A stretch of 64,000 bases of DNA from Clostridiales bacterium (GTDB lineage: Bacteria; Bacillota; Clostridia; Lachnospirales; Lachnospiraceae): the NCBI GenBank assembly GCA_012519695.1, contig JAAYPT010000046.1, positions 1 to 64,000 on the forward strand, given 5' to 3'. How positions within the stretch are numbered: the first letter of the stretch is position 1; every line of letters begins with the position of its first letter. Positions 175-8,857 of this stretch are shown here, piece after piece. The position numbers were made by a program, and so were the translations under genes. The notes under the pieces are model-generated. The model was not told the DNA's origin. It ran no database searches and saw only the letters and a list, made by a program, of their open reading frames with translations.

Positions 175-519
175 TTGAGTATAAAAGTTGCAATCGCAAG
201 TACAGATGGGAAAGTCATTAACCAACATTTTGGTCATGCAGAAAAATTTCACATAGTAGAGATTGGAGAAGAAGAGTATTCCTATCGGGAAACCAGAGAA
301 GTGGCAAGTTGTTGTAATGGTGGAACACATGAGATGTCTTCTTTCGAAAAAGTTGCAGAAACGTTGCAGGATTGCAAGGCAATTCTGGTAAGTAGGATTG
401 GACCGGGAGCTTTAGCCTATATGGAAACCAAAGGATTTACAATTTTCGAAGCTCCTTGCAGGGTAGATGAGGTTTTAAAGAAAATCATAGATGAAAAAAT
501 ACTGGAGGTGAGAGAATGA
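175..519 (+). CDS. NifX/NifB-type cofactor-carrier domain protein
   Basis: This 114-residue protein belongs to the dinitrogenase iron-molybdenum cofactor biosynthesis family (NifX, NafY, C-terminal NifB domain), which binds Fe-S cofactor precursors. It opens with the family pattern VAIASTDG and NQHFG (H18), and has a Cys pair at C46-C47 followed by GGTHE. The start is a TTG with AAGGAG eight bases upstream. It overlaps the next gene by four bases (ATGA), so the two are translationally coupled. A second copy lies at 7576. Because the adjacent NifB lacks its usual C-terminal NifX-like domain, this free-standing protein may supply that carrier function (inference). Confidence 0.85.
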   Translation: MSIKVAIASTDGKVINQHFGHAEKFHIVEIGEEEYSYRETREVASCCNGGTHEMSSFEKVAETLQDCKAILVSRIGPGALAYMETKGFTIFEAPCRVDEVLKKIIDEKILEVRE

Positions 520-1391
520 CAATTTCATATCAGGAATTGGTGTTACGACATCCTTGTTTTGCAAAAGGGAAAAAAGGAGAAACAGGGCGCATTCATTTAC
601 CGGTTAGTCCGGAATGTAATATTAGTTGTAAGTTTTGTGATAGACGGGTAAATGATTTTGAATATCGTCCAGGAGTTACTTCAAAGGTTTTAAAACCGGA
701 AGAGGCGGTAGATGCCGTGCGACGGGCAATAAAATTATGTCCACAGATTCAGGTAGTAGGGATCGCAGGCCCGGGCGATACGTTAGCAAACGATAATGCA
801 CTAGAGACATTTCGTTATATCAAGAAGGAATTTCCAAATTTGATTGCCTGCATGAGCACCAATGGATTGTTGCTTCCAGAGCGGGCAGAGGAAATAAAAG
901 AAGTAGGCATTGATTCACTAACTGTAACGGTTAATGCAGTGGACCCGGAAATTGAGGCAAAATTAAATACAGGAATATATTATCATGAAAAAATTTACAA
1001 AGGGGTAGAGGCAGCGCAGATTCTTATTAAAAATCAATTAGAGGGAATTCGTAAGGTTTCACAGTATGGAATCACATTGAAGGTCAATACAGTATTAGTT
1101 CCGGGAATCAATGATGACCATATTGAGACAGTAGCTAAAACAGTGGCACAAGCAGGTGCGGATATATACAATATTATCCCGCTAATTCCACAACATGAGC
1201 TTTCAGATTATCCAGCGCCAACCTGCCAACAGATAGATGCAGCAAGGCAAAAGGCGGAACAGTATATAGATGTATTTCGACATTGCCAGAGATGTCGGGC
1301 AGATGCAGTAGGAGTTCCAGGAGAAAAAGATTATGGAGAGCAGATATATTTGAAACGGGTTTCCTTTAAAGAAACATTTTCTCATGGATAA
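516..1391 (+). CDS. nifB: NifB-like radical SAM cofactor synthase
   Basis: NifB converts two 4Fe-4S clusters and S-adenosylmethionine into the carbide-centred Fe8 precursor of nitrogenase cofactors. The radical SAM motif is C34-NIS-C38-KF-C41, followed by RPGV. An N-terminal HPCF (C14) and a C-terminal RHCQRCRADAVG block are typical NifB cofactor-cluster regions. At 291 residues it is the short form without the fused NifX domain. The ATG overlaps the preceding stop and has GGAGGTGAG upstream. Its presence implies that the partner reductase carries a complex Fe-S-C cofactor and not simple 4Fe-4S clusters as in protochlorophyllide reductases. Confidence 0.93.
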   Translation: MTISYQELVLRHPCFAKGKKGETGRIHLPVSPECNISCKFCDRRVNDFEYRPGVTSKVLKPEEAVDAVRRAIKLCPQIQVVGIAGPGDTLANDNALETFRYIKKEFPNLIACMSTNGLLLPERAEEIKEVGIDSLTVTVNAVDPEIEAKLNTGIYYHEKIYKGVEAAQILIKNQLEGIRKVSQYGITLKVNTVLVPGINDDHIETVAKTVAQAGADIYNIIPLIPQHELSDYPAPTCQQIDAARQKAEQYIDVFRHCQRCRADAVGVPGEKDYGEQIYLKRVSFKETFSHG

Positions 1392-1437
1392 GAGAAGTAA
1401 TAACAAAGTAAAACAAAAGGAATAGAGGAGAAAAGAA

Positions 1438-2292
1438 ATGGCAAATAGTAAAACAAGACAGATTGCAATTTATGGAAAAGGAGGAATTGGAAAGTCCACT
1501 ACCACACAGAATCTTACCGCAGGACTTGCAGAACTAGGGAAAAAAGTCATGGTAGTAGGATGTGATCCAAAGGCAGATTCTACCAGACTTTTATTAGGTG
1601 GATTGGCACAAAGAACCGTATTAGATACTCTGCGTGAGATTGGAGAGGATATTGACCTTGACCAGATTATGAAAGAAGGATATAAGGGAACACGTTGTGT
1701 GGAGTCCGGTGGACCAGAGCCCGGAGTAGGCTGTGCAGGTCGTGGAATTATTACCTCCATTGGACTGCTGGAACGTTTAGGGGCATATACGGATGATTTG
1801 GATTATGTATTTTATGATGTATTGGGAGATGTAGTTTGTGGAGGATTTGCAATGCCGATTCGTGAGGGAAAGGCAAAGGAAATCTATATTGTAGCCAGCG
1901 GTGAAATGATGGCATTGTATGCAGCAAATAATATTGCAAAGGGAATTCAAAGATATGCAAAACAAGGTGGTGTTCGTCTTGGTGGAATTATATGTAACAG
2001 TCGAAATGTTGACCGGGAAATCGAACTTTTGCGAGCCTTTGCAGAAGAATTAGGAACACAGTTGATTCATTTTGTGCCACGAGACAATATTGTACAGCAT
2101 GCCGAGATTCGAAAGAAAACCGTAATTGATTATAAACCGGATGCACATCAGGCAGATGAATATCGGGAGCTGGCGAAAAAAATTGAAGAAAATGAGCTCT
2201 TTGTAATACCAAAGCCTATGACGCAGGAAAGATTAGAAGAGATTCTTATGGAATTTGGTCTTATGGATATAGCGGATGATTACAACATATAG
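1438..2292 (+). CDS. nifH: NifH-like nitrogenase iron protein
   Basis: This is the ATP-dependent electron donor (dinitrogenase reductase type) for the NifDK-like complex encoded downstream. The 284-residue protein has the deviant P-loop [11 protein letters not shown] (12-22), switch motifs DPKAD and [12 protein letters not shown], and the two subunit-bridging 4Fe-4S ligands C99 (GVGCAGRG) and C134. R102 matches the arginine that is ADP-ribosylated in some diazotrophs. The start ATG has GAGGAG upstream. Overall it looks close to true NifH. No draT or draG is visible nearby. It is separated from its nifD-like partner by a three-gene importer, which is unusual. Confidence 0.93.
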
Positions 2293-7563: not shown

Positions 7564-7575
7564 GAGGAAGTGTAT

Positions 7576-7938
7576 ATGGTAAAGGTTGCAATAGCAAGTA
7601 GCGATGGTAAAAACGTAAATGAACATTTTGGAAGAGCAGCATTTTTTCATATCTATTGTTTATCCGAAAGTGATTATAGCAAAGAAGGAATACGCGATGT
7701 AGTTGCAGCCTGTCAGCATGTGCGTGGACATAGTGAAACCAATTTTGAACGGGTATTGTCACTCGTGTCCGATTGTGATGCACTTTTGGTTAGTAAAATA
7801 GGTGAATCTGCGGCAGCATACTTGATTGAAAGAAATGTAAGGGTATTTGAAGTCCAGGGAGAAATAGATGCTGTTTTAAAGAAAATAATAGCAGAACGAT
7901 TGTTGAAAAAGGAGGAGAAAAATGGCAAAAATTTATAA
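7576..7938 (+). CDS. Second NifX-type cofactor-carrier domain protein
   Basis: This 120-residue paralogue of the protein at 175 shares the [20 protein letters not shown] and VLKKII blocks. The ATG at 7576 lies eight bases after GGAGG; an in-frame GTG at 7570 is too close to it. Its CQHVRGHSE segment replaces the CCNGGTHE of the first copy, so the two may bind different cluster forms. The 3' end overlaps cysK by 17 bases, and the lysine-rich tail carries the cysK ribosome site. Two such carriers in one operon, without nifEN, suggest a shortened cofactor assembly path (inference). Confidence 0.85.
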
Positions 7939-8857
7939 AGGAACATTAGAATTGATAGGAAATACCCCCTTAGTAGAAGCGGTAAATATTGAGAAACGAT
8001 TTAAATTGGACGCAAGAATATTAGCAAAGCTGGAATATCTCAATCCGGCGGGAAGTGTAAAAGATCGTATTGCCAAGGCAATGATTGAAGAAGCAGAAAA
8101 AAGTGGAAAAATAAAAGAAGGCACAACAATTATTGAGCCTACCTCGGGAAATACAGGAATCGGGTTGGCTTCCATTGCAGCAGCTAAGGGATATAAAGTT
8201 ATTTTAACCATGCCGGAAACTATGAGTATCGAGCGAAGGAATATATTGAAGGCATATGGTGCAGAAATTGTATTGACGGATGGTAGCAAGGGAATGAAAG
8301 GAGCCATTGAACGTGCGGATGAACTGTCAAAGACCATAGAAAACAGCTTTATACCAGAACAGTTTGTAAATCCGGCAAATCCAGAGATTCATAGAACAAC
8401 AACCGGACCTGAAATTTACAGAGACACAGAAGGAAGAGTAGATATTTTTGTAGCTGGAGTAGGAACAGGCGGTACGATTACAGGAGTGGGGGAATATTTA
8501 AAGGAAAAGAATCCACAGGTAAAAGTAATAGCAGTAGAACCGGAGTCAAGTCCGGTATTATCAGAGGGCAAGAGTGGACCGCACAAGATTCAAGGTATTG
8601 GTGCGGGATTTATTCCAAAGGTATTAAATACATCCGTGTATGATGAAGTTATAAAGGTAACAAATGAAAGTGCCTTTGAGTATAGCAAAATTTTTGCAAG
8701 AGAGGAAGGAATTCTGGTTGGTATATCGGCAGGTGCTGCCCTGTTTGCGGCAGTAAAATTGGCGAAAAGACCAGAGAATGAAAATAAGAATATCGTTGTG
8801 TTGTTACCGGATAGTGGAGACAGATATTATTCTACACCTTTGTTTGTAGAAAAATAG
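7922..8857 (+). CDS. cysK: Cysteine synthase (O-acetylserine sulfhydrylase)
   Basis: This PLP enzyme makes cysteine from O-acetylserine and sulfide. The 311-residue protein carries the PLP lysine K47 in NPAGSVKDR, the substrate loop [12 protein letters not shown], the phosphate-binding GTGGTITG, and the C-terminal SISAGAA-like segment [10 protein letters not shown] with [17 protein letters not shown] lies seven bases before the ATG. It is the last gene of the nitrogenase-like operon, just before a strong terminator. Its place there suggests that sulfide, or a thiol convertible to it, is a product to be assimilated, and links the operon to sulfur supply and not to nitrogen. Confidence 0.95.

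Follow-up and report, generated by a model that had tools for sequence, protein, structure and literature searches.

What does a nitrogenase-like enzyme do in an operon that also carries the genes of a methionine-type importer and of a cysteine synthase? The question is raised by ten genes at the start of the window, by which we mean the whole stretch of DNA that was analysed, 64,000 nucleotides (positions 1 to 64,000 of contig JAAYPT010000046.1, assembly GCA_012519695.1) from a Clostridiales bacterium of the family Lachnospiraceae. The genes, all on the forward strand, are nifX, nifB, nifH, metN, metI, metQ, nifD-like, nifK-like, a second nifX and cysK; every one of the ten obtained a family match in profile searches, and all stand in the order and on the strand given by an earlier reading of the same sequence (the original prediction). 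We propose that the operon probably encodes an anaerobic, ATP-driven carbon-sulfur (C-S) bond reductase for sulfur assimilation. The nearest solved structure is that of methylthio-alkane reductase (Mar), an enzyme reportedly named by North et al. in 2020. The chemistry class is already known; what appears to be new is a clade with a changed active site, its nitrogenase-type Fe protein and the bearing of these genes on nifH surveys.

The catalytic subunits and their place beside Mar

First of all, the NifD-like and NifK-like proteins (D and K below) are far from nitrogenase. D scores 185 bits on the nitrogenase alpha model, whose cut-off is 486 bits, and the top score of K across the listed models is 95 against 490 bits, whereas the best structural match of both is Mar (Table 1; 9FMG is the R. 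rubrum enzyme, PMC12552129, and the sequence of 9d9u_C, matched by K, is shared with 9fmg). A genome-wide search with D returned D and K alone, one pair, and no nifEN-like match; with nifB in the operon, this bears out the expectation of a NifB-dependent, NifEN-free system. In the column of A. vinelandii His442, the three true NifD rows hold His and a gap stands in all 94 members of the window's own clade (clade W) and in 9/9 of the Mar clade, while the nitrogenase Gln191 and His195 sites hold Trp and Phe in the D proteins of clade W. Since D and K lie far under the curated cut-offs, His442 is absent and no nifEN was found in the genome, we conclude that the predicted enzyme is not a nitrogenase.

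Second, the cluster ligands of Mar are all kept. The excerpted text of PMC12552129 reports Cys 66, 91 and 158 in D and Cys 32, 56 and 121 in K as P-cluster ligands, and Cys270 and His429, with Arg428, as those of the cofactor, the cluster being surrounded by His194, Trp195, Phe199 and His375; an Arg-His loop is proposed there as a hallmark of Mar. The window D keeps Cys66, Cys91, Cys158, Cys270, Trp195, Phe199, His375, Arg428 and His429 of MarD, and His194 is replaced by Met182 (own numbering). Of 163 proteins collected for the D alignment, from which those shorter than 400 residues were dropped, 94 belong to clade W, and the same pattern runs through them: Cys66/91/158/270, Trp195, Phe199, His375 and Arg428 are found in 94/94 and His429 in 93/94 (one member has Pro in this column), and residue 194 is Met in 39, Val in 37 and Ile in 18, that is, never the His seen in 9/9 of the Mar clade. 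Equivalents of the MarK Cys 32/56/121 occur in 155/155 K proteins. Because the Arg-His loop is kept in clade W too, outside the Mar clade, it is, on the sequences at hand, the mark of a superclade wider than Mar; 3/12 superclade members unassigned to a clade have Ala instead of His429, and two genomes counted within the superclade (G229, G230) carry Ala at 429.

Third, D stands outside the Mar clade itself. In the careful D tree (55 rows), clade W has support of 100/99 and the Mar clade 100/100, and the superclade of W, Mar and further clades is separate from true NifD and NifE at 100/100; a quick tree of 87 rows agrees with the careful one, the careful trees being those that leave out long or distant rows. 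In neither tree does D fall within N2-fixing NifD, and the original prediction thus withstands the check that it had named for itself. W and Mar as sister clades were considered and rejected, since a group of four other sequences, not clade W, joins Mar first as its nearest kin in the careful tree. The window D, about 42% identical to MarD, is thus best assigned to a separate clade of the Mar superclade with a predicted change in the active site, and the relation to Mar drawn by the original prediction holds for the best structural match and the superclade and fails for the Mar clade and for His194. Like MarBHDK of R. rubrum, the operon has NifB, H, D and K without NifEN; unlike it, it includes metNIQ and cysK.

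Finally, Mar-clade and W-clade pairs share one locus in Pectinatus haikarae (L139) and in Ruminococcus sp. UBA7013 (L120), and since these two genomes keep both pair types side by side, the evidence suggests that the two kinds of enzyme use separate substrates. The Pectinatus haikarae locus (7084-14170) has the Mar-clade D and K in tandem with those of the window's clade, metNIQ ahead of them and a MetY-like gene after.

Named relatives at 68-83% identity, among the 80 of 574 matches listed, come from Ruminococcus albus, Acetobacterium, Faecalispora, Clostridium sporosphaeroides, Kineothrix, Sinanaerobacter, Pectinatus, Herbinix, spirochaetes, Coriobacteriales and Endomicrobium. NifD-like proteins with Cys275 and without His442 have been described, their function unassigned in the excerpted text (PMC3464626), and gut Clostridiales with cluster III nifH have been reported in which some NifD are without the histidine, these not being considered incapable of N2 fixation in the excerpt of that source (PMC4995403).

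A nitrogenase-type Fe protein and the meaning of nifH

The Fe protein of the operon is of the NifH type, not the MarH type. It reaches 490 bits against 1cp2, which we take to be the NifH of C. pasteurianum, versus 282 bits against MarH (9fmg_D), and it is the one NifH-family match above 60 bits in the genome. The original prediction had called for a NifH phylogeny and had missed that the protein is nitrogenase-type. Sinanaerobacter presents the opposite case, with a clade W D (73% identical) and an Fe protein that scores 475 bits to MarH and 281 to 1cp2.

The careful NifH tree unites 35 rows of the NifH type, all from nitrogenase-free operons, at 93/93. This group adjoins the NifH of three true nif operons from the same family (joint fork 99/95), to which the window Fe protein is 79-84% identical, and the whole is nested among other nitrogenase NifH, apart from the MarH type and that of isethionate reductase (Isr), at 100/100. 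A first quick tree had nested those three nif-operon sequences within the NifH of the sulfur operons; this arrangement was dropped, because adding further true NifH rows and removing the long row L082 places them outside, as the sister group. Mapped on the D tree, Fe-protein type requires at least 5 changes, the type being set by 65% identity to the window NifH for any NifH in the locus and R. rubrum being labelled from the literature. Because two Mar-clade representatives have a NifH-type Fe protein in the locus, the MarH type may not be defining for Mar. At L202 (7998-8871), a nitrogenase-type NifH, not MarH, lies ahead of a Mar-clade D that is 72% identical to R. rubrum MarD. That Fe proteins may be used across systems had been suggested for Heliophilum (PMC9147875, in excerpt).

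How often does nifH occur without a nitrogenase? Of 299 genomes sampled from the window's family, 45 have a nifH above the curated cut-off; 9 of these, and no others, also have a nitrogenase alpha that passes. In every one of the 36 that remain there is a NifD-like match under the cut-off, placed in the superclade by the D tree in 29 and by its residues in one more (G076), and by neither in the last 6, one of them a fragment. Across the phylum (343 genomes), nifH was found in 57 and nitrogenase alpha in 51, and 8 of the 57 nifH genomes are without alpha. The pattern of nifH without nitrogenase is strong in the window's family and mild across the phylum.

Published surveys, as excerpted, have met with related patterns: 23% of 501 rumen genomes were nitrogenase-positive by NifH, with rumen N2 fixation reported as negligible (PMC6776011), and the excerpted text on pseudo-nifH of Clostridia assigns it no role (PMC8597730). 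The latter case resembles ours in that a NifH-type Fe protein occurs in genomes without annotated nitrogenase, and differs in that its excerpt names no partner whereas the window encodes one alongside; the genes may be the same. If the NifD-like proteins under the cut-off in these nifH-bearing genomes are C-S reductases, surveys that rely on nifH in such habitats score sulfur scavengers as nitrogen fixers, and the operon could help account for nifH in some anaerobes without nitrogenase. The clades of the superclade would also form a natural active-site series on what lets a nitrogenase-type cluster cut C-S bonds. In the literature searched, which took in few subscription journals, none of the matches listed treats clade W as distinct, mentions a NifH-type Fe protein in it or ties pseudo-nifH to C-S reductases.

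Sulfur-gene linkage and the proposed reaction

Linkage was scored in those 52 of the 94 clade W loci that are flanked by 5.4 kb or more on either side (42 were dropped, the window among them), with neighbours typed by blastp at E <=1e-8 against window proteins and reference proteins from relatives. A sulfur gene lies within 6 kb of D in 52/52, and a CysK, MetY or MetB homolog in 50/52; after thinning at 85% identity, the figures are 18/18 and 16/18. By type, CysK-family genes are found at 36 of the 52 loci, MetB at 34, MetY at 32, SsuBC at 12 and metNIQ at 9, and in the thinned set of 18, metNIQ at 4 and SsuBC at 10; the tie to metNIQ and cysK that was read from the window is thus real and recurs among relatives. 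Same-strand runs (gaps <=300 bases) join sulfur genes to D in 29/38 representatives, and metNIQ stands in such a run with 14 D genes at 13 loci, 10 of the 14 D genes being in clade W. As an internal control, sulfur-gene density in the 38 representatives is 0.189 per kb up to a distance of 6 kb and 0.053 per kb beyond it, a contrast that is weaker over all 93 (0.197 vs 0.100 per kb). In the other clades, sulfur genes lie near D in 11/14 of clade B (thinned 3/5), 6/9 of the other superclade members and 3/4 of the Mar clade (thinned 1/2). By eye, no clear correlation was seen between transporter type and residues 74/194.

The CysK-family genes of R. albus and Kineothrix are divergent (43-48% identical), and in Kineothrix the top-scoring model is cystathionine gamma-lyase (MccB type) for the MetB-like protein and O-acetylhomoserine sulfhydrylase for the MetY-like protein, both under cut-off. 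In Kineothrix alysoides (L129, 7607-9952), a DUF4418 protein, an FtsX-like permease and an ABC ATPase are encoded between the CysK-like gene and D, and L128, L150 and L155 resemble this arrangement by size and order. Group IV genes of the MarHDK kind beside cysK, metY and metB have been reported by non-selenium mlp clusters, where the linkage of group IV-A genes to sulfur genes and methionine transporters was already noted (PMC10418091); clade W and its Fe protein are not singled out in the excerpted text of that source.

We envisage the following course of events. NifB would build an [Fe8S9C] cluster, which the NifX-like proteins may carry and which would be inserted into D/K without NifEN, molybdenum or homocitrate steps. 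Nitrogenase-type NifH, with ATP, would deliver electrons to the P-cluster of D/K and thence to [Fe8S9C] in D, where a small organosulfur compound, with a thioether as the likeliest candidate, would have its C-S bond cleaved to give a thiol or sulfide. The released sulfur would be fixed as cysteine by CysK, in the form of sulfide, and in relatives by MetY also. MetY accepts sulfide or methanethiol. MetNIQ would increase the supply of sulfur compounds, and perhaps bring in the enzyme substrate itself, a proposal that we hold tentatively, at about a third. Gene content, ligand conservation, clade position, linkage and Fe-protein type are read from the sequences; we infer the reaction class from Mar, and we infer also the cluster type and the capture of the product. 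With metNIQ, CysK, MetB-like and MetY-like genes distributed over the clade loci as counted above, the product could equally be methanethiol routed to methionine. Overall, the view that this clostridial bacterium has a Mar-like reductase tied to sulfur metabolism has gained support.

Several observations weigh against this proposal. The literature searched yielded no activity report on clade W, and CysK requires sulfide while Mar releases methanethiol. MarD His194, one of three residues by the S2B site, is substituted, and Mar's substrates are thus possibly unused; the cluster might also serve a different reduction. The metNIQ genes are near D at only 9 of the 52 clade W loci, and those 52 include many near-identical Ruminococcus albus relatives. 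Furthermore, NifDK-like clades outside the superclade also adjoin sulfur genes, in 9/17 (thinned 7/15), so that linkage alone is no proof of the reaction.

Among the alternatives, the one that survives best, and which we hold to be nearly an even call, is that of an operon for sulfur starvation whose metNIQ and cysK are co-regulated passengers, MetNIQ bringing no substrate to the enzyme and CysK taking no product from it, an arrangement compatible with the C-S reductase class. Both shift position around the cluster and are frequently absent, and the metNIQ of the operon, the sole one above cut-off in the genome, may just serve methionine uptake; its placement after nifH and ahead of nifD, within an operon free of gaps, and its recurrence at 10 clade W loci, on the other hand, speak against the passenger reading.

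A functional Mar acting on the R. rubrum substrates (dimethyl sulfide, ethyl methyl sulfide, 2-methylthioethanol) and releasing methanethiol would be a special case of the C-S reductase that we favour, and we judge it somewhat improbable. The nearest solved structure and the retained cluster ligands agree with it, as do the MetY-like genes at 32/52 clade W loci, some MetY kin being users of methanethiol. Clade W is nevertheless separate and well supported, has lost His194 throughout, and is accompanied by Mar-clade pairs in Pectinatus haikarae and Ruminococcus sp. UBA7013, which points to different tasks; the window operon, moreover, has cysK instead of metY. The estimates for the C-S reductase, for the Mar substrates and for substrate import by MetNIQ overlap and are judgements.

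A sulfonate reductase of the Isr kind, which would release sulfite, is very unlikely, even though SsuBC-type transporter genes accompany 12/52 clade W loci (10/18 thinned) and an SsuABC-like set lies downstream of the window operon. In the excerpted text of PMC11423573, IsrBHDK of R. capsulatus is likewise a nitrogenase-like system for organic-sulfur assimilation beside sulfonate transporters, but IsrD retains a single P-cluster Cys and is missing both Cys275 and His442, and IsrB, its radical-SAM partner, is of another lineage and not NifB-like. As the window D keeps every P-cluster Cys and the Cys275 equivalent and has a NifB partner, membership in Isr so defined was rejected. Isr-like, Cys-lacking proteins (L074, L075) sit elsewhere in the D tree, and sulfite would need a reductase, whereas the genome's single NIR_SIR match, which is AsrC-like at 161 vs 324 bits, is not in the operon. 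A nitrogenase operating without NifEN can be dismissed as extremely improbable, since, although the Fe protein is of true NifH type and above cut-off and a NifEN-free Roseiflexus nitrogenase has been published (PMC11573651, in excerpt), membership in the Mo nitrogenases is rejected by the score of D, the absent His442, the Trp and Phe at the Gln191 and His195 sites and the lack of NifEN, and Mar, with the same cluster, showed no N2 reduction according to the excerpt of PMC12552129.

A bolder form of the C-S reductase proposal is decidedly doubtful. Here the Fe protein of nitrogenase would be exchangeable, serving N2 fixation as well as a large and so far unrecognised class of sulfur-scavenging C-S reductases of gut anaerobes. 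The operon would be a reductive route from methionine to cysteine: MetNIQ would import a thioether amino acid of the methionine type, the [Fe8S9C] cluster would cleave it, and CysK would fix its sulfur. If this were true, most nifH-bearing genomes of the window's family would use nifH for sulfur.

Operon architecture and neighbourhood

The first base of the window is also the first of its contig, which is 87.6 kb long and belongs to a genome of 3.16 Mb that is 99.99% complete. Because the contig starts 174 bases upstream of nifX, there may be an additional gene 5' of it. Spacings within the operon are 46, 47, 28, 5 and 6 bases and the remaining gene pairs overlap; since the largest gap is 47 bases and the other genes overlap, the predicted operon is likely a single transcription unit. 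The start of K was set at ATG 6226 in preference to GTG 6178 by comparison with relatives.

Table 1. Coordinates of the operon genes and flanking elements in the window, with the matches on which each assignment rests
Feature	Position	Strand	Evidence
Leader, three predicted hairpins, one dispersed-palindrome copy at 119-137	45-174	+	RNA fold z = -4.17
NifX-like cofactor carrier 1	175-519	+	PF02579 74 bits
NifB, radical-SAM part only	516-1391	+	TIGR01290 283 bits; PDB NifB 7jma 322 bits (best)
NifH, nitrogenase-type Fe protein	1438-2292	+	TIGR01287 470 bits (cut-off 394)
MetN-like ABC ATPase	2340-3128	+	TIGR02314 328 bits, cut-off 499.7 missed
MetI-like permease	3125-3835	+	NF008049 144 bits, cut-off 212 missed
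MetQ/NlpA-family substrate-binding lipoprotein	3864-4751	+	PF03180 240 bits; PDB MetQ-family matches
NifD-like catalytic subunit	4757-6226	+	PDB 9fmg_A 447 bits vs <=142 nitrogenases; ligands; trees; no His442
NifK-like subunit	6226-7563	+	PDB 9d9u_C 386 bits vs <=70 others; MarK Cys 32, 56, 121 kept
NifX-like cofactor carrier 2	7570-7938	+	PF02579 67 bits
CysK, cysteine synthase A	7922-8857	+	TIGR01139 466 bits (cut-off 351); PDB cysteine synthases <=391 bits
Intrinsic terminator, operon end	8899-8932	+	15-pair stem and T run, starts 41 bases past cysK

NifB falls short of the TIGR01290 cut-off of 343.65 bits, which is set for the full-length protein; it has 291 residues, lacks a NifX-like domain at its C-terminus (the two NifX-like proteins of the operon come from genes of their own) and carries the motifs CxxxCxxC, HPCF, ExRP and a C-terminal CxxC. 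For MetNIQ, the importer named by the original prediction lies inside the operon and belongs to the right families, but all three proteins are under the curated NCBIfam cut-offs (MetQ reaches 136 bits against 228.85), and methionine-type is here a description of predicted family membership. The operon MetQ is the sole protein above the Pfam cut-off in the genome, and, together with the single strong NifH, this speaks against a chance grouping of the genes. Elsewhere, the genome has a cysE just above its cut-off (211.0 vs 210.65 bits) and four strong MetB/MetY-family genes.

The call of the terminator relies on stem length and location, as the scan overall gave 8 terminator-like sites vs 8.9 in shuffles. 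The leader had no Rfam match. No sulfur riboswitch or T-box reached gathering scores in the window and 16 relative loci, in which the RNA matches were a tetrahydrofolate (THF) riboswitch and a tRNA-Gly, both distant from the operon, along with two tRNA genes and an L10 leader, and window positions 1-17000 gave no riboswitch-type RNA match of whatever kind at E up to 1; riboswitch control of the operon was rejected on these Rfam-type scans.

The palindrome ATAGGAAATTACGTCCTAT occurs in the window ahead of the operon and at 8944-8962, ahead of an alkylsulfatase unit; it precedes cysE as well, and its sites include L212 1352 and L235 15070. In 422 kb of the genome it has 11 matches with <=3 mismatches, 10 of them intergenic. 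A role as a common sulfur operator was rejected, and since 8/11 matches have no recognised sulfur gene beside them, we take it for a dispersed repeat that is not operon-specific.

Past the operon terminator, window positions 9244-16026 encode SsuC-like and SsuB-like transporter proteins and two alkylsulfatases (PF14863 with a metallo-beta-lactamase fold), with an SsuA-family binding protein between, and this region is a predicted second sulfur-scavenging unit. Farther on, the THF riboswitch (23339-23437, reverse strand, 91 bits) precedes a membrane-protein-like open reading frame at 22701-23303, and a PatB/MalY-like pyridoxal phosphate enzyme, 37% identical to a PatB-like protein in a relative's sulfur cluster, is encoded at 62072-63244.

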